Assembly (NCBI GenBank): GCA_005801425.1
Contig: SYDY01000022.1
Location: 1-34,587 of the forward strand
DNA length: 34,587 bases
Reading direction: 5' to 3'
Source of the DNA: Bdellovibrionales bacterium
GTDB taxonomy: Bacteria; Myxococcota; XYA12-FULL-58-9; SYDY01
A program made the position numbers and the translations under genes. Of the stretch, positions 8,365 through 33,845 are shown in pieces. Every line of letters begins with the position of its first letter. The stretch's first letter is position 1. The notes below the pieces were generated by a model that saw only the letters and a program-made list of their open reading frames with translations, was not told where the DNA came from and did no database searches.

Positions 8365-8478
8365 AGAAAATACCTCCTCACGTGCCAGGTTGGCGAGAAC
8401 GCGGGTTTATGACAGCTAGAACCGGGGGGGTCAATACTAGGCCTATCGCGTTCTAAAAACGTGTATGCATGTTATGGG

Positions 8479-8551
8479 TAGGGGCGGTTCGTGAACCGCC
8501 CTTGCGGCGCTTGTAGTATGAAAACAGGTCGGTTCGCGAACCGCCCCTACA
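8479..8551. repeat. Double-hairpin palindromic repeat (REP/BIME-like)
   Basis: The left hairpin has arms around GGTTCGTGAACC and begins TAGGGGCGG. The right hairpin is built on GGTTCGCGAACC and ends CCGCCCCTACA. The ~28-base linker is not conserved. The outer ends are inverted copies of one another. It sits between the 3' end of the pseudouridine synthase gene and the rpsU promoter region. Related copies are at 1-21, 14401-14470, 30424-30471 and 30668-30735. Confidence 0.85.
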
Positions 8552-9447: not shown

Positions 9448-11313
9448 ATGTCGACATATAGAGCGGATGGGCGTAGTTCTGTGAGCTCAAATACATCTTT
9501 ACTGCCAGATGAAACTACTGCTTCCCCTAGTCGGAGAAAAGGACATAAACCTCGTCCTACTGCTCAGGAAGTATTTGAGAATCAACCTCCACCGCCACCT
9601 CCGATGCCGCTACCACCCTCTACTCACAGTGCGCTGGCCAGACCCCCCGCAAGTTCTCAGTCATTCCAGAGCCAATTGGCACAACGAACCGAGGAATTTC
9701 AAAACAAAACAATTCAGCATGTACGCGATTTTCAGTGTGACGCAGCCAGCAACAAAGCGTCACTCACTTTCAAAGGCCGTGATGGCACCGATTACAATGC
9801 TACCGTTGATCTCAGTGCGTACAAAAGATTGAAGCCTGGCGCTACCCCTGCTGACCTACAAGCGGAAGCAACAAAACAGATCAATAGCGCTATGAGTGCT
9901 GCTGCAAAACTGCAATCGGGACTTGGTGGTGCTGATACGGCAACGTGCATTGGCAGCAAACCTGGCGATGCATTCGATTTTTCTAAAGGCTTTTCATACG
10001 GCGGAGGCCCACCACCCACGCTTTCCGGGCAGATAACAAATGCGACCCACGGGCCGGGAAGCATTGCAGCAACGTTCGATGCAAAAGCAAATGGGGACCC
10101 AAACAAAGTGACGGGATTCACGATTACCCGGCCCCCTGCCGGTGCATCAACTCATACGCCGACAGTGACAATTGCACCGGTGGCGTCGGCGGATACGAGA
10201 CGCTTGGCAGAGAATCAAACGTACGATACCCGAACAGGCGTATTAGGTAGTGGCCCTCACGATGTAGACGATCATGGCCTTGCTGCATTTCATCATGATC
10301 TTGATAGATTACAGGGGCAATTGCATCCTTTAAATAGCCAAATTGCTCAAGTAGAAAGTCAGTTAACTGCGCTAGAAGCAAAGCTGGTCGGTCGCGGTTC
10401 AGAGGCAGACGGCCTCAGAGCAGAACTTGCAACGGCCAAGGACAAACTACGTGATCTGAAGGCGAGTGTTCAGACATTGAACGAACAAATCCGGCCGATG
10501 TTGCTCGATCATGACGGTTTGCCGGATCAACCTGATAACGTAATGGAAGCGCTACAACTACAGCACGCAGGTCTCGTACTGCATATAAACGCAGCCGTGA
10601 GCAATGCTACGGCGTTGGGAGAGAGAGTAAATCATTTACTATCACCGCTTCAGGACCCAAGTTCGCAACGACCTCCCCATCCTACTGCTACCGCGCTGAG
10701 CAGGCACTCTGACGGCACTGACCATGTGTTGCAAAGAGCACCTGCATCTGAGTTAGGACTGGAATTTGCCCGAAGAGAAGCCCTGCGGCGTGCGAGTGAA
10801 GGACAACCTCCAGCGGGTCTGCAACAACGTTTGCAAGCAGATGATGCCGCCAGGGCTCAAGCATCACCGCTTCCACGTCCTACAGCTGGGGCAATGCATA
10901 ATTTCGGTCCAAGAAAAACCGATTTTGATACGACAGCTTTTAATCAGATGTTTCATGATCCTGTGTACGCACAGACAGATGCCATTGGTCCACAAAAGGC
11001 GCTGGCACTGGCAAATGCTGCTGCATTCATAGACAGGCACAGTGGTCACATATCGAAGCAACCCGCTACAGAGAGGTCATGGACTCGCATCCCTACAGAC
11101 CGCAATGGAAATCCGATCAATATCGATCTCCGAAAAGACCCAAGCGGCACGAAATATGCGCTTTTTCAACATGAAGGCAAATACTATGCTGCGCAATTCA
11201 AAACCCCTTCAAAGGAAATTATATACGGTTATGTGCCTCCTGCGAAATGGGAGGTAAGATCCATTTCACCGGAACAGTATGTGCAGTTTCTTTCTGGGAA
11301 GCCAGCGCAATAG
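9448..11313 (+). CDS. Unknown coiled-coil protein, paralogue A (621 aa)
   Basis: Unrecognised family; paralogue of 12386-14251. Layout: residues 1-100 Ser/Pro-rich and disordered, with a run of six prolines at 47-52; about 105-230 a beta-rich domain (TDYNATVDLSAYKRL, INSAMSAAAKL, GDAFDFSKGFSYG, IAATFDAKANGDPNKVTGF); about 276-350 a coiled coil (LDRLQGQLHPLNSQIAQVES); and a C-terminal domain at about 500-621 ending near GTKYALFQHEGKYYAAQFK. No signal peptide or membrane segment. The Pro-rich start, coiled coil and solubility resemble secreted effector or scaffold proteins, but no function can be assigned. The start is the ATG right after a -10-like hexamer. Confidence 0.8.
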   Translation: MSTYRADGRSSVSSNTSLLPDETTASPSRRKGHKPRPTAQEVFENQPPPPPPMPLPPSTHSALARPPASSQSFQSQLAQRTEEFQNKTIQHVRDFQCDAASNKASLTFKGRDGTDYNATVDLSAYKRLKPGATPADLQAEATKQINSAMSAAAKLQSGLGGADTATCIGSKPGDAFDFSKGFSYGGGPPPTLSGQITNATHGPGSIAATFDAKANGDPNKVTGFTITRPPAGASTHTPTVTIAPVASADTRRLAENQTYDTRTGVLGSGPHDVDDHGLAAFHHDLDRLQGQLHPLNSQIAQVESQLTALEAKLVGRGSEADGLRAELATAKDKLRDLKASVQTLNEQIRPMLLDHDGLPDQPDNVMEALQLQHAGLVLHINAAVSNATALGERVNHLLSPLQDPSSQRPPHPTATALSRHSDGTDHVLQRAPASELGLEFARREALRRASEGQPPAGLQQRLQADDAARAQASPLPRPTAGAMHNFGPRKTDFDTTAFNQMFHDPVYAQTDAIGPQKALALANAAAFIDRHSGHISKQPATERSWTRIPTDRNGNPINIDLRKDPSGTKYALFQHEGKYYAAQFKTPSKEIIYGYVPPAKWEVRSISPEQYVQFLSGKPAQ

Positions 11314-11375: not shown

Positions 11376-11453
11376 AACACCCCCACCGATCGCTTTGCGA
11401 GCGACTTTCCCAACGCAATCGCGCTACGCGCTCATGCTGGGAGAGTTTTATCG
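11376..11453. repeat. Dispersed ~78-bp palindromic repeat, copy 1
   Basis: Begins AACACCCCCACCG and ends in CTCATGCTGGGAGAGTTTTA, with an internal palindrome around CGCGCTACGCG. A second copy lies at 14287-14366, and both follow the 3' end of a 621-residue paralogue (62 and 35 bases after the stop). The similarity is high in the right half and looser in the left half. Confidence 0.8.
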
Positions 11454-12385: not shown

Positions 12386-14251
12386 ATGGGCGACCAGCAC
12401 TCACGATTTCCTATTCCTCCGCCATCAAGACCAGTTTCTTTCGCTGAAAGTGAGGATGGCGCACCACTCCTCCAACCAGGCCAGGGAAACCCGTCAAGGC
12501 ACGCTGCCTGGGAAGATACTTACGGGGAGAACACTGGCCGACCGCGGATGCCAACACCTCTCAGTCGTGAATCATCCTTCTCTGATGTCCCGCCAGGACC
12601 GAGAAGAACAGCGTCCACGCACACGCCGCCGCCTGACTTCTCTGAATATCAATATGTAACAAATCCCCGCGATCCAACGGCGGGTGTCAGCGATGGACCC
12701 CCGTCCAAGACACAAGCCACCTTTACTTTTGACTTACCGCCAGATGGCATGCCGCACACCGCCACCGTGGATATTACCGCGATACTCAAAAAAAGAGGCA
12801 TGCCGCCTCTCGCTGACGGCGATGCGATCCCGCCGGCACTGCACGATCACCTCATCAAAGAAGTAAACACCGCCATGAAAGCGGCGTTTGCATTGGAACA
12901 TCTTTTGAGAACGGAAAATCCAGGCCCTGCCGCTCATGAGGAGTATGGAGACTGGAAACAAGGCGATCAACTCGACTTAAACAAAGGCATCCATCTACAA
13001 CGTTCGGCGAATGGGGCGATGAAACTTTTCGGTGCTGTGCGCAATGACTTTTTCAATGACACAGCTACTATCGAAGCGAAGTTTAATAAAAAGGGCGATA
13101 TCACATTTAAGATTGGAGCACGTACGGACGGAGAGCAACTTTACGGTGAGTTGCCTGGTGATTTTGACGTGAGTGTGCAGCCTCACAGGGCCGCTCATCC
13201 AAGCACATTGCCCTTTCAAAATGGCGGACCCAATCCAACATACTGGTCATCAAGAGAGCATGGCGAAGACCCATATCAAGTCGTGGATCAAGAAGAGATG
13301 AGGTTAAGAAGAACTTCGACGGCATCCAGCATCCACGACGAGCCACTGTCCCCTGTTGATACCCGACAAATCGCTGCGTTGCATCGAGAGAACAATGCCA
13401 TCAGATTAGAACTAAGAAAACAGAATGAAATTATCTCCCAGCTCCATGCTCTCATCCAAAATTCAACTGCAGACCTTGATGAGGTTCTACAACACTTGGA
13501 TCAGACTGGACGCACAATTTATTCTCTGGAACAGCGTGTTACGCGTCTGGAAGGTAATATAGCGTTACTGCATGCTCAGTTTAATGACGGTGACCAGGGA
13601 CTAACAACGACCGTCGACGCGCTACGTGAGGAGCTAGGCCGATCAAAAGCGAATGTGCTGGCATTAATAGATGAAGCAGCACGCTTGCAGCAAGCAGCAG
13701 CGAGACCTCTTTCGGCACTGACCGTGGATGACGAAGAGGAAGAGGATGCTGATCCTTTCTCTGCCCATTTCTCGCCTGCCTCATCTCCCGTATTTCCGTT
13801 GACTCGAAGGATTTCTGAGGACGAAGATGCCCTGCATTCACCGCCCCTCACCGTTATCGTTGCGCCACCATCCTGGACTGAACAACAGCAGGGTTTTATT
13901 CCTCACGCGAACGAAAGCGCTGTTATAGGTTTTTTTAATAGCCCTAGAGGAGCACCCCCTGAAAGGCATTTCCAGGAAGTGAAAGAGTCAGAGATTAAAC
14001 GCCTAGCCCAACTGGCACATACAAGTATGAGCAAGAGTTCCAAATTAGCGAATAAATGGACTGAGCGTGCTGGGGACCCACCTCGCGATAGTGGGATTTC
14101 GGAACTCCGAGCAATACGGCCCTCGCGGGGCAGCGCTGACTATCTCATAAAGTTCAAATATCAAAATGAAATCTACTATGCTTCCATGGTCAAAAATGAG
14201 GGCGTCGTAGGAAATCAACGCAATATCAAAGTATTCAAAGCCGTGCAGTAA
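12386..14251 (+). CDS. Unknown coiled-coil protein, paralogue B (621 aa)
   Basis: Diverged paralogue of 9448-11313, of the same length. Residues 1-105 are Pro/Ser/Arg-rich and disordered. Residues ~110-250 match the same domain (HTATVDITAILKK, VNTAMKAAFALEHLL, GDQLDLNKGIHLQ, TATIEAKFNKKGDITFKIG). Residues ~327-440 form a long coiled coil (EQRVTRLEGNIALLHAQF). An acidic DDEEEEDAD patch lies near 447. The C-terminal domain ends with the counterpart of the A tail (YLIKFKYQNEIYYASMVKN). No signal peptide or membrane segment. Function unknown; a structural, scaffold or exported effector role is possible but not shown. Confidence 0.8.
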   Translation: MGDQHSRFPIPPPSRPVSFAESEDGAPLLQPGQGNPSRHAAWEDTYGENTGRPRMPTPLSRESSFSDVPPGPRRTASTHTPPPDFSEYQYVTNPRDPTAGVSDGPPSKTQATFTFDLPPDGMPHTATVDITAILKKRGMPPLADGDAIPPALHDHLIKEVNTAMKAAFALEHLLRTENPGPAAHEEYGDWKQGDQLDLNKGIHLQRSANGAMKLFGAVRNDFFNDTATIEAKFNKKGDITFKIGARTDGEQLYGELPGDFDVSVQPHRAAHPSTLPFQNGGPNPTYWSSREHGEDPYQVVDQEEMRLRRTSTASSIHDEPLSPVDTRQIAALHRENNAIRLELRKQNEIISQLHALIQNSTADLDEVLQHLDQTGRTIYSLEQRVTRLEGNIALLHAQFNDGDQGLTTTVDALREELGRSKANVLALIDEAARLQQAAARPLSALTVDDEEEEDADPFSAHFSPASSPVFPLTRRISEDEDALHSPPLTVIVAPPSWTEQQQGFIPHANESAVIGFFNSPRGAPPERHFQEVKESEIKRLAQLAHTSMSKSSKLANKWTERAGDPPRDSGISELRAIRPSRGSADYLIKFKYQNEIYYASMVKNEGVVGNQRNIKVFKAVQ

Positions 14252-14286: not shown

Positions 14287-14366
14287 AACACCCCCACCGC
14301 CGCGCTTCGCTTGGCGACTCCCCCAACGCAATCGCGCTTCGCGCTCATGCTGGGAGAGTTTTAGCG
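14287..14366. repeat. Dispersed ~78-bp palindromic repeat, copy 2
   Basis: Second copy of the element at 11376-11453: AACACCCCCACCG start, CAACGCAATCGCGCT core, GCTCATGCTGGGAGAGTTTTA end. It contains GCGCTTCGCGC. It follows the stop of paralogue B by 35 bases. Confidence 0.8.
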
Positions 14367-14400: not shown

Positions 14401-14470
14401 TAGGGGGGGCGCGAACCGCCCTGTTTGCATATTACAAGCGCCGCAGGGCGGTTCACGAACCGCCCCTACA
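14401..14470. repeat. Double-hairpin palindromic repeat (REP/BIME-like)
   Basis: The left arm is degenerate (TAGGGGGGGCGCGAACCGCCC). The right arm is a perfect hairpin, GGGCGGTTCACGAACCGCCC, ending CCCCTACA. It lies between converging genes, just beyond the 3' end of the helicase gene, where it may act as a transcript end. Together with the repeat at 14287-14366 it fills most of the 245-base gap. Confidence 0.8.
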
Positions 14471-21415: not shown

Positions 21416-22825
21416 ATGGCATCAAGAATTACTGCGACCACGGATTATTTTCTTCCCTCGCTTACTCGGGCCCCTCGCCCCACTGAGAATTATTCCCAAC
21501 TTCCATTGGGTGATTCCTACCATTTGCGAACTCCAGAGCGGACGTCGCATCCCGCACAACCTATCCATATGCTTTCAGCGGCGCTCGTTGCACCTGTGAT
21601 TCATCAACCCAACAGCCCGCAGACACTCACATTCCCAAACGGTGAGGTTTACTTTGGCGAATGTGTGAACGGGCTCCCCAACGGTCATGGAATGCTCATA
21701 CTCCCAGGCGGCAACTCATACGTTGGTACATTTTTGAACGGGCAATTTCACGATCATGGAACGATGACATTATCAAACGGGATCTCCTTTGTAGGACTGT
21801 TTGTGCATGGTCAATTTCTCGGCACATTTATTGACGGCCCCAACGGCCAAGGAACACTTGCATTCGCAAATGGCAACACATACGTCGGAACATTCCTGAA
21901 TGGGCAATTCGACGGACAAGGAACGATCACATTCGCAAACGGCAACAGATATGTAGGAACATTTCTGAATGGGCAATTCAACGGACAAGGAACGTTCACA
22001 TTCGCAAACGGCAATAGATATGTCGGAACATTCCTGAATGGGCAATTCAACGGACAAGGAACGTTCACATTCGCAAACGGCAATAGATATGTCGGCGATT
22101 TTCTGAACGGAAAACCCAATGGACAGGGAACATTCACATTCGCAAATCACGACGTATACATCGGGACATTTGTAAACGGACAGCCTATCGGACAGGGAAT
22201 GCTCACATTCGCAAACGGCAATAAATATGTCGGAACATTTCTGAATATGAAATTAAACGGACAGGGGACGCTCACGTTCACAAACGGCAATAGATATGTC
22301 GGCGATTTTGTGGACGGACAGCGCACTGGCCAGGGAACGTACACATTCGCAAACGGCGCAACACACGTCGGCGAATTTCTGAACGGAGAGCCCAATGGAC
22401 AGGGAACACTCACATTCGCAAATCACGACGTATACGTCGGCGCATTTGTAAACGGACAGCGTACCGGACAGGGAACACTCACATTCGCAAACGGAAAAAC
22501 ATATGCCGGAACATTTCTGAATGGGCAATTCAACGGACAAGGAACGCTCACGCTCACAAACGGCAATAGATATGTCGGAACATTTCTAAACGGACAACGC
22601 ACTGGACAGGCGACGTACACATTCGCAAACGGCGCAACACACGTCGGCGAATTTCTGAACGGAGAGCCCAATGGACAGGGAACACTCACATTCACAAATC
22701 ACGACGTCTACGTCGGCGCATTTGTGAACGGGCAACCCAACGGCCATGGGACGTACACTTTCGCAGACGGCACAACACACGTCGGAGAGTTTTTGAACGG
22801 GCAAATCATCAATGGGCAGGGTTGA
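21416..22825 (+). CDS. MORN-repeat protein 1 (469 aa)
   Basis: After a ~77-residue N-terminal module the protein is made of 16 full and one partial 23-residue MORN repeats, of the form YVGTFLNGQFNGQGTFTFAN. MORN repeats form a beta-hairpin rod and in eukaryotes act in membrane or protein binding; bacterial roles are mostly unknown. The N-terminal module (FLPSLTRAPRPTENYSQ, RTPERTSHPAQ, MLSAALVAP) is shared in outline with MORN protein 2 at 23034. No classical signal peptide. Unit 3 has an 8-residue insertion (LGTFIDGP). Function not assignable; a surface-related role is possible. Confidence 0.88.
   Translation: MASRITATTDYFLPSLTRAPRPTENYSQLPLGDSYHLRTPERTSHPAQPIHMLSAALVAPVIHQPNSPQTLTFPNGEVYFGECVNGLPNGHGMLILPGGNSYVGTFLNGQFHDHGTMTLSNGISFVGLFVHGQFLGTFIDGPNGQGTLAFANGNTYVGTFLNGQFDGQGTITFANGNRYVGTFLNGQFNGQGTFTFANGNRYVGTFLNGQFNGQGTFTFANGNRYVGDFLNGKPNGQGTFTFANHDVYIGTFVNGQPIGQGMLTFANGNKYVGTFLNMKLNGQGTLTFTNGNRYVGDFVDGQRTGQGTYTFANGATHVGEFLNGEPNGQGTLTFANHDVYVGAFVNGQRTGQGTLTFANGKTYAGTFLNGQFNGQGTLTLTNGNRYVGTFLNGQRTGQATYTFANGATHVGEFLNGEPNGQGTLTFTNHDVYVGAFVNGQPNGHGTYTFADGTTHVGEFLNGQIINGQG
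21647..22822 (+). repeat. Tandem 69-bp coding repeats (MORN units)
   Basis: The MORN units are 69 bases each and very alike at DNA level. Units 5 and 6 are nearly identical. Units 10-12 recur as units 14-16 at a distance of 276 bases (4 x 69) with only a few changes, showing a recent block duplication. Confidence 0.9.
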
Positions 22826-22999
22826 AATGCAGCAAAGTATATCCTGCCCGGCTCCTAAAAACTGAGAGACACGTAAAGTTTCAGCGCTTCAAGGTCTCTT
22901 CAGTGTGAATGGGCGAGACTACTTCGACAACATCGATCCAAGGCGCAAAGATGTGCGATAATACTCTCGCACTACTTATTTTATATCAAATAATATGGT

Positions 23000-23033
23000 T
23001 TTAAATTGAGGTATATTGAGCGTATAACATCGC
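23000..23033 (+). promoter_or_regulatory. Promoter with leaderless start before MORN protein 2
   Basis: TTTAAA (23000-23005), 17-base spacer, TATAAC (23023-23028), then 5 bases (ATCGC) to the ATG at 23034. Both boxes are fair matches with ideal spacing, and there is no SD. This is the best supported of the leaderless candidates. Confidence 0.5.
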
Positions 23034-23663
23034 ATGACCTCAACAATTTCTGCACTCGCGAAATGCCTTTTCCCATGCCTCACTCGGCCTACTGCGCAAG
23101 CACCCACAAGAACTTCTCTCGCTGATGACGTCTACGTACGAACGCCAGCAGGGGCATCTAATCTGGCACAAACCCTCCCTTTGCTTTCAGCAATAGTTCC
23201 TGAGGACAGCCAGCGCACCGGCCAGAGAACACTCACATACGCAAACGGTGACGTTTATGTCGGCCATTTTGTGAATGACCAGCGCACCGGCCAGGGAACA
23301 TACACATTCGCAAACGGCAATAAATATGTCGGCCATTTTGTGAGTAACCAGTTCAACGGGCAGGGAACCCTTACATTCGCAAACGGCAACGTCTATGTCG
23401 GCGATTTTGCGAATAACCAGCGCACCGGCCAGGGAACATACACATTCGCAAACGGCAACATCTATGTCGGCAATTTTGTGAATGACCAATTCAACGGGCA
23501 GGGAGCGTTCACATACGCAAACGGCAACGTCTATGTCGGCGATTTTGTGAATAACCAATTCAACGGGCAGGGAACCCTTATATTCACAAACGGCAACGTC
23601 TATGTCGCCCTATTTGTGAACGGGCAATTAATCAATAACGGATTTAGGATAAACAGAGGTTAG
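23034..23663 (+). CDS. MORN-repeat protein 2 (209 aa)
   Basis: Shorter relative of 21416-22825. Residues 1-~58 match its N-terminal module in outline (LFPCLTRPTAQAPTRTS, VYVRTPAGASNLAQ, PLLSAIVPED). About six MORN units of 23 residues follow (VYVGDFVNNQFNGQGTL). The units use NDQ/NNQ where protein 1 uses NGQ, so the two arrays have expanded separately. It ends in NGQLINNGFRINRG, like the other protein's NGQIINGQG. Unknown function. It lies between the bio and pur gene groups. Confidence 0.85.
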   Translation: MTSTISALAKCLFPCLTRPTAQAPTRTSLADDVYVRTPAGASNLAQTLPLLSAIVPEDSQRTGQRTLTYANGDVYVGHFVNDQRTGQGTYTFANGNKYVGHFVSNQFNGQGTLTFANGNVYVGDFANNQRTGQGTYTFANGNIYVGNFVNDQFNGQGAFTYANGNVYVGDFVNNQFNGQGTLIFTNGNVYVALFVNGQLINNGFRINRG

Positions 23664-29366: not shown

Positions 29367-30662
29367 GTGAAAATACTTCTCGTCGGCGGCGGTGGCCGTG
29401 AACATGCCATGGCAAAAGCCCTAACATCCGCAAGCAACATCACACTGCTTGCAGCGCCTGGAAATCCTGGCATCGCCGAACATGCACGATGCATTCCCAT
29501 CGCGGCCGATGATGTTGCCGAGCTTGTGCAATTGGCCCGCGATGAAAAAGTGGATCTTGTGGTGGTGGGGCCCGAAGCGGCACTCGTCGGTGGCATTGCC
29601 GATGCCTTGGCCTATTTCAAAATCCCCTGCTGCGGCCCAACATCCCAGGCGGCCATGCTCGAAGGCTCCAAAGCATTCACACGTACCCTTGCAGCACAAG
29701 CAGGTGTCCCCCAACCACGATTTCACGTGATTGATAATACAAAAGATCTCAATGCTGTTGTCCGCACATGCGCCGAAGAGTGGAATACCCTTCCTGTCAT
29801 CAAAGCCGACGGATTGGCCGCAGGCAAAGGCGTCATGCTCCCCGATTCTCTCGAAGAATGCATTGACGCCACACGTGCCCTTTTAGAAGGCAGCATGAGC
29901 GATGCGGGCTTAACCGTTGTTCTTGAAGAGCGCATCGTAGGCACTGAAGCCTCTTTGTTTTTTGCGTGCAACGGAACCTCGTGGGTGGCACTCCCCCACG
30001 CACGCGATCACAAACGCCTTCTTGATCATGACAAGGGACCCAACACCGGCGGCATGGGTGCCTACAGTCCCAACCCTGACATCACACCCGAAATCCAAAC
30101 ATACGTAGAAAACACCATGCTCAAGCCCGTACTTCAGGCCTTGGCAAACGACGGAATGCCCTACGTTGGATTTCTCTACATCGGGATCATGCTCACAGCC
30201 ACCGGACCACAGCTGATTGAATTCAACTGCCGTCTCGGCGACCCCGAAGCCCAAGTGATTTTACCGCGGTTGCATGACGGTGATTTCATATCGCTTTGTC
30301 AAGCCACCGCCTGCGGAACATTGGGAGCGGTTCATCTTCGCGTGGATCCGCGGCCTGTGTGTGCTGTTGTAGTGTGCGCCCATGGGTATCCTGAGGACCC
30401 ACGAAAAGATGACATCATCACCGTAGGGGCGCAGCTTGCTGCGCCTAAGGGCAGGGATTGCCCTGCCCCTACAACCACATGGCTCATCCATGCTGGCACC
30501 CGCCTCGATGACACAATCTTGCGAACCTGCGGCGGCCGTGTTCTGGCAAGTGTAGGACGCGGCACCACCCTTGCCGAAGCCAAGCAGCACGCATACGACG
30601 GATTGCGGAACGTTCACATCGAAGGCGCACATTGGCGGACGGATATAGCGAAGACATGTTAA
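29367..30662 (+). CDS. purD: Phosphoribosylamine-glycine ligase (GAR synthetase)
   Basis: ATP-grasp ligase joining phosphoribosylamine and glycine. N-terminal ILLVGGGGREHAMA, VVGPEAALVGGIADA, ATP-grasp KADGLAAGKGVMLP, DHKRLLDHDKGPNTGGMGAY, and EFNCRLGDPEAQVILPRL. 431 residues. GTG start at 29367 with GGAG at 29355-29358. Odd feature: residues ~353-369 (VGAQLAAPKGRDCPAPTT) are encoded by an in-frame copy of the dispersed palindromic repeat, at a surface-loop position before the conserved IHAGTRLDD. It lengthens that linker by about 9 residues compared with the E. coli enzyme as I recall it. Confidence 0.96.
   Translation: MKILLVGGGGREHAMAKALTSASNITLLAAPGNPGIAEHARCIPIAADDVAELVQLARDEKVDLVVVGPEAALVGGIADALAYFKIPCCGPTSQAAMLEGSKAFTRTLAAQAGVPQPRFHVIDNTKDLNAVVRTCAEEWNTLPVIKADGLAAGKGVMLPDSLEECIDATRALLEGSMSDAGLTVVLEERIVGTEASLFFACNGTSWVALPHARDHKRLLDHDKGPNTGGMGAYSPNPDITPEIQTYVENTMLKPVLQALANDGMPYVGFLYIGIMLTATGPQLIEFNCRLGDPEAQVILPRLHDGDFISLCQATACGTLGAVHLRVDPRPVCAVVVCAHGYPEDPRKDDIITVGAQLAAPKGRDCPAPTTTWLIHAGTRLDDTILRTCGGRVLASVGRGTTLAEAKQHAYDGLRNVHIEGAHWRTDIAKTC
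30424..30471. repeat. Palindromic repeat inserted in frame within purD
   Basis: Starts TAGGGGC and ends GCCCCTA. It holds two perfect hairpins, one around GCAGCTTGCTGC and one with arms GGGCAGGG/CCCTGCCC. It is 48 bases long, a multiple of three, and has no stop codon in the purD frame. It is built like the intergenic repeats but with different hairpin cores. Confidence 0.8.
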
Positions 30663-30667
30663 CCGTG

Positions 30668-30735
30668 TAGGGGCGGTTCGCGAACCGCCCTTGATGAATA
30701 CGAAAGAACACGGGCGCTTCACGAAGCGCCCCGAC
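30668..30735. repeat. Double-hairpin palindromic repeat (REP/BIME-like)
   Basis: The left hairpin is TAGGGGCGG followed by TTCGCGAACCGCCC. The right hairpin is GGGCGCTTCACGAAGCGCCC, ending CCGACA. The linker is ~27 bases. It fills most of the purD-purE gap. Confidence 0.85.
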
Positions 30736-30766
30736 AAGAACAGCAGCGCAAAACGGGAGTTTGAAC

Positions 30767-32573: not shown

Positions 32574-33845
32574 ATGCCAACCGTAGTCATTGTAGGGGCC
32601 CAATGGGGCGATGAAGGCAAAGGCAAAATCACCGATTACCTCGCAGCCGAGGCCGATTGCGTGGTTCGCTACCAGGGTGGCAACAATGCGGGTCACACCA
32701 TTGTGGTCGGCAATGTGACACACAAATTTCACCTCATTCCTTCAGGCATGCTCTATGAAGGCAAGCGCTGCATGCTCGGCAACGGCGTCGTGGTGGATCC
32801 CGAGATTTTATTGCAAGAACTTGATGCCTTGATGGCCAAGGGCATCGATATTGCGCGTTTTGGCGTATCCCTTGCCGCACACTTTATTTTGCCCACCCAC
32901 AAATTTCTTGATGTCGCCGCCGAAGCCTCAAAAGGCGACCAAAAGATCGGGACCACGGGACGTGGCATCGGTCCGGCCTATCGCGACAAAGTGAATCGTT
33001 GCGGGGTGCGCATTCATGATCCGGCCGATCCCGTACGCTTGCGCCATGCAGTGGCCGAACATTTTCGTGAACACGAAGGCAAACTCAAAGGTTGCGATTG
33101 GACCGAAGAGCGCACGGTGGCACATCTCGAAGCTTGCTATGCACGCCTCGCACCCCATATTTGCGATGCTTCGCTTGAGATCAACAATATCCTCGACGCA
33201 GGTGGCAAAGTACTGCTCGAAGGCGCACAAGGTACCTTGCTTGATATCGATCATGGCACCTATCCCTACGTAACATCATCCAACCCCATTGCGGGCGGTG
33301 CATGCATCGGCGCAGGCGTTGGTCCCACACGCATCGATCGTGTTCTTGCGGTAACCAAAGCATACAGCACACGCGTTGGCGAAGGCCCCTTCCCTTCCGA
33401 ACTCGACAATGAAACCGGTATTTTATTTAGAACCAAAGGCGGTGAGTTTGGCACCACCACAGGGCGTCCACGCCGCTGCGGATGGCTCGACCTCGTGGCA
33501 CTCAAGTATGCAGTGCGGGTTAACGGTGTCACCCACCTCGCCGTCACCAAACTTGATGTTCTCGATTCATTTGATGAACTCAAAATTTGCACGGCCTACA
33601 AAATCGGCGACACGATTATCAATGACTATCCCGTGGGTACCGATCTTTCCCTTGTAGAACCCATCTACCAAACCATGGAAGGCTGGCGCACCAGCACAGA
33701 ACAAGCGCGCAAATGGAGCGATCTGCCTCCCCACGCAACCGCCTATATTTCGCGCATCGAAGAAATATTGCGCGTCCCCGTGGCCATCGTAAGCGTAGGT
33801 GCCGAGCGCACCGCCACGTTCTCACGCCTTGCCATTTGGCGTTAA
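32574..33845 (+). CDS. purA: Adenylosuccinate synthetase
   Basis: GTP-dependent ligation of IMP and aspartate, the first step from IMP to AMP. N-terminal GTP-binding GAQWGDEGKGKITDYLA, GGNNAGHTI, HKFHLIPSG; later TTGRGIGPAYRDK, LLEGAQGTLLDIDHGTYPYV and TTGRPRRCGWLDL. 423 residues. ATG at 32574, preceded by AGGGA (32561-32565) and 11 bases after purB, so probably in one transcript with purE and purB. Confidence 0.98.
   Translation: MPTVVIVGAQWGDEGKGKITDYLAAEADCVVRYQGGNNAGHTIVVGNVTHKFHLIPSGMLYEGKRCMLGNGVVVDPEILLQELDALMAKGIDIARFGVSLAAHFILPTHKFLDVAAEASKGDQKIGTTGRGIGPAYRDKVNRCGVRIHDPADPVRLRHAVAEHFREHEGKLKGCDWTEERTVAHLEACYARLAPHICDASLEINNILDAGGKVLLEGAQGTLLDIDHGTYPYVTSSNPIAGGACIGAGVGPTRIDRVLAVTKAYSTRVGEGPFPSELDNETGILFRTKGGEFGTTTGRPRRCGWLDLVALKYAVRVNGVTHLAVTKLDVLDSFDELKICTAYKIGDTIINDYPVGTDLSLVEPIYQTMEGWRTSTEQARKWSDLPPHATAYISRIEEILRVPVAIVSVGAERTATFSRLAIWR

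Follow-up and report, generated by a model that had tools for sequence, protein, structure and literature searches.

The window analysed here, a stretch of 34,587 nucleotides from a Bdellovibrionales bacterium, contains purD, whose reading frame carries a palindromic repeat, together with further repeats of similar build between genes. The features are as follows.

29367–30662, plus strand: purD (phosphoribosylamine--glycine ligase), 431 aa, the genome's only copy (one match in its own genome); NCBIfam TIGR00877, 418.7 bits over residues 1–429; Pfam GARS_N, GARS_A and GARS_C
30423–30472, plus strand: 50-bp heterodimer of two GTAG REPs, arranged head to head and in frame, encoding VGAQLAAPKGRDCPAPT (residues 353–369); from sequence, translation, folds and 87–88% identical genomic copies
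30423–30445, plus strand: first REP unit, GTAG plus stem-loop GGGCGCAGCTTGCTGCGCC; from the hairpin scan, with near-exact copies of 23–25 bp at many genome sites
30449–30472, minus strand: second REP unit, in opposite orientation, GTAG plus stem-loop GGGCAGGGCAATCCCTGCCC; from the hairpin scan
30667–30738, no strand assigned: intergenic REP pair between purD and the next gene (GTAGGGGCGGTTCGCGAACCGCCC ... GGGCGCTTCACGAAGCGCCCCGAC); from sequence
8478–8550, no strand assigned: intergenic head-to-head REP pair, 73 bp; from sequence
14442–14469: intergenic repeat of tag-plus-palindrome build

Elsewhere in the window, two adjacent ORFs are made of 69-base (23-residue) repeats (21776–23657). Two ORFs of equal length (621 aa; 9448–11313 and 12386–14251) are each followed by a similar 53-base sequence (11401–11453 and 14314–14366, 92% identical), and this ORF pair is possibly a duplication.

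The purD element reads GTAGGGGCGCAGCTTGCTGCGCC TAA GGGCAGGGATTGCCCTGCCCCTAC, 50 bp including the outer GTAG and CTAC tags, and its first base opens a codon of the purD ORF. Its two units, separated by a spacer of 3 bases, are both GTAG-tagged with the tags facing outward, and the hairpin scan gives them 8-bp stems with loops of 2 and 4. As single-stranded DNA the element folds into two hairpins at −19.1 kcal/mol (z −3.9; 0 of 200 shuffles as good), and as RNA it reaches −34.4 kcal/mol (z −4.1; 1 of 200 shuffles as good). An earlier note on this DNA had described a 48-base repeat with two hairpins at 30424–30471, lying in frame in purD and encoding most of residues 353–369. Sequence and translation confirm the repeat and its frame, and both folds, with z about −4 against shuffles, confirm the hairpins, but the span was one base short at each end, where the outermost bases complete the GTAG and CTAC tags. 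The likeness that the note saw to the window's intergenic repeats holds for the tag-plus-palindrome build common to them, although the stem of those other repeats is mostly GGTTCGCGAACC, unlike that of the purD element.

The element belongs to a repeat family of this genome. A 60-base query around it returns 43 matches there, the best non-self match having 87% identity across 53 bases (E 4.5e-12) and another 88% (E 1e-10); the same combination of two stem types recurs in four siblings of 49–52 bp, one of which lies in mutL. Genome-wide, the tag GTAGGGGC is present 346 times and the reversed string 163 times, and a sample of 1.33 Mb, chosen partly by tag positions and therefore not for extrapolation, holds 154 tagged REP hairpins against 1 with the reversed tag. 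By its genomic copies and by these excesses of tags and tagged hairpins, the purD element is more than a product of chance. Order-level relatives mostly have fewer copies of GTAGGGGC than of its reverse (for example, 70/181 and 89/430), so the expansion seems to be specific to this lineage. A copy of the tag at 32592–32599, in purA, was rejected as a REP: it is a false tag formed by conserved VGAQWGDEGKG codons, with no palindrome. Among the sampled loci (L049–L149), outward-tagged REP pairs of exactly 75 bp in total recur 9 times, which suggests a REPIN-like unit whose spacer is constant in length.

Within PurD, the encoded residues lie in a variable loop before the conserved HAGT segment of this single-copy housekeeping enzyme, as the earlier note had proposed. 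At the position of ITVGAQLAAPKGRDCPAPTTTW in this protein, the closest complete relative (58% identity) has ITVDPALATADRW, with 13 residues between the flanking landmarks rather than 22. In a PurD fragment from a different family within this order the loop reads IKVSDKIDSGSCW, and in solved PurD structures (PDB homologues) it is likewise shorter; the REP-coded loop is absent from the aligned relatives and from the PDB homologues alike. The conservation in distant PurD proteins that the earlier note had named as refuting evidence is thus not seen. The AlphaFold (AF2) model, computed from a four-row alignment, has a fold that matches PurD structures and a mean pLDDT of 81. Its lowest values, below 50, fall at residues 360–371, and DSSP assigns no secondary structure to residues 354–377, which places the element in a loop predicted to be flexible. 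The idea of an in-frame insertion stands insofar as relatives lack the repeat loop, but this is no plain insertion: the net gain is ~9 residues from an element of 17, with about 8 older loop residues gone. The closest relatives are only about 54–58% identical in PurD and thus show no recent empty site; a PurD scan of genome contigs gave distant relatives only (32–36%).

The purD element is not an isolated case. A search for further elements inside genes placed 34 of the 154 hairpins of the 1.33 Mb sample within 28 predicted genes, and for 16 of these, spread over 14 genes, the sequence on either side is clearly coding. Genes were called with a home-made ORF caller and a coding flank required a score above 3 on both sides; several N-terminal cases may stem from wrong start calls. 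Family searches identify the hosts as thiD, nqrA, a DEAD/Hrq1-type helicase, an exosortase/CAAX protease, an MFS transporter, dnaG, dctM, addA (with a pair), addB, mutL, a GT4 glycosyltransferase, a formyltransferase, a MurD-like ligase and a biotin carboxylase, among others. Pfam domains span the REP in purD, thiD, nqrA, dctM, the MFS transporter and the Mur ligase, and the intact frames and domains suggest that the host proteins are functional. A homologue search with the MFS transporter found no close relative. An FHA/TPR protein (L121:3532–5241) contains the same in-frame REP (VGAVREPP) twice, at a distance of 28 residues, and the biotin carboxylase (L129:16011–17801) has two in-frame REPs between its carboxylase C domain and its biotinyl domain.

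Coding sequence makes up 89% of the sample and holds only 22% of the REP hairpins, a strong depletion that fits arrival anywhere followed by strong purging. Among the intragenic REPs the GTA frame (VGA...) is over-used, at 17/34 where about one in five would be expected (p 9e-5) and at 8/16 in the strict set with coding flanks (p 0.007), statistics in which paired elements are not independent.

How a REP comes to lie in a gene bears on all these hosts. The REP-bearing loops that we compared are all variable. In thiD (about −4 to +2 residues relative to relatives) and nqrA (−1 to +5), the residues that the REP encodes overlie pre-existing loop sequence and lengthen it little or not at all; the dctM loop gains about 4 relative to its closest relatives, and the helicase loop 10 to 15, apart from one relative whose loop is equally long. 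Loop length varies widely around the REP of the MurD-like ligase, whose loop exceeds that of some relatives and falls short of that of others. The small gains in PurD, thiD and nqrA and the mixed lengths of the MurD-like loop mean that simple insertion fails as an account. One alternative is that REPs enter genes by replacing local coding sequence, through template switching or conversion-like copying, with peptides that overwrite loops and lengthen them little; we regard this as unlikely, and the relatives are so distant that comparison does not separate replacement from insertion followed by trimming. At least 14 genes with coding sequence on either side of the REP form a natural series in this genome for studying insertion versus replacement, the protein loops that accept REPs and possible selection on the frame; the first of these questions is the one most worth pursuing.

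With good confidence, we interpret the purD element as a GTAG-family REP dimer of the RAYT-mobilised type, tolerated with its frame kept in a permissive surface loop of PurD. It would be a mobile but non-autonomous palindrome, of a type ascribed to RAYT (HUH tyrosine) transposases, and would have ended up in this permissive loop of the C-terminal domain, where the about 8 ancestral loop residues may have been lost on arrival or trimmed later. The dimer would have persisted because the reading frame was kept and the encoded loop is soluble and disordered. Its presence is probably selectively neutral and its arrival probably recent, because both palindromes are intact in the DNA though synonymous drift would erode them.

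A RAYT is the likely mover, and the genome encodes RAYT-like proteins. Two score 73 and 67 bits against NF047646, just below the cut-off of 80. A third, TIRYT-like copy (L004, about 820–1800, on contig C1 of the same genome) is broken, its gene split by a 185-bp insert with inverted ends of about 27 bp; the whole unit, 983 bp with terminal inverted repeats of about 35 bp, resembles the TIRYT units described in a published survey (Di Nocera, De Gregorio, Rocco 2013, PMC3733652). No matching REP pair lies beside any of the RAYT-like genes examined, and no REPtron with a purD-type REP was found among them; GTAGGGGC is absent from the stored flanks of the genes at L002 and L003 and occurs once beside the broken L004 copy.

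Tolerance is also a simpler reading than exaptation, in which the REP-coded loop would serve PurD in regulation or protein–protein contact, or an mRNA hairpin would tune translation of the purD–purE transcript. The strong RNA fold could speak for the latter, and the over-used GTA frame could mean that the encoded peptide matters. However, the loop is not conserved across relatives and is predicted to be disordered, REPs occur in many unrelated proteins, and a frame bias can also arise when worse peptides are purged or through a bias in orientation, in data where pairs are not independent; a service to PurD or to its transcript is therefore decidedly improbable. Far less probable still is an assembly artefact joining two loci at a repeat: the genome is in 121 contigs, several of which end at REP tags, but PurD homology runs through in a single frame on either side of the element, other copies match it exactly over only about 24–25 bp, and the pattern recurs in at least a dozen genes. 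That old PurD sequence resembles the repeat by chance can be practically dismissed, for although the purA case, arising purely from conserved codons, indicates that a tag alone can be coincidental, here 50 bases match a genomic family with both hairpins intact and PurD relatives lack the loop.

By the definitions in the accessible part of the 2013 survey, the purD element is a head-to-head heterodimer of GTAG REPs. The GTAG REPs described there, sorted into families GTAG-1 to GTAG-24, likewise have a GTAG tag, stems of 6–13 bp, short loops and many copies, and they form head-to-head heterodimers with tags outside and partners sometimes 1–5 bp apart. Some also lie within ORFs, many of them in replication and repair genes, with dimers encoding 20–30 residues; against that description, the PurD host and a net gain below the element's length are features of the case presented here. 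Inverted REP pairs in many copies recall REPINs and BIMEs, as do the recurring 75-bp pairs, but the 3-base spacer of the purD pair is shorter than theirs. The earlier note's analogy with Rickettsia RPE is apt for the phenomenon, palindromes in frame within genes for functional proteins (as cited in PMC3733652), but not for the family: on the survey's account, R. conorii RPE-4 and RPE-6 are CGTC-tagged and have no associated transposase, the purD element is a GTAG dimer, and no sequence relation is shown. Nor are such insertions rarely reported outside Rickettsia, as the note had supposed, since the same survey covers intragenic GTAG and CGTC REPs in several species. The phenomenon is thus already known, and the novelty lies in the heavy load of intragenic REPs in this genome, which joins the small number of genomes whose housekeeping enzymes contain translated mobile palindromes.
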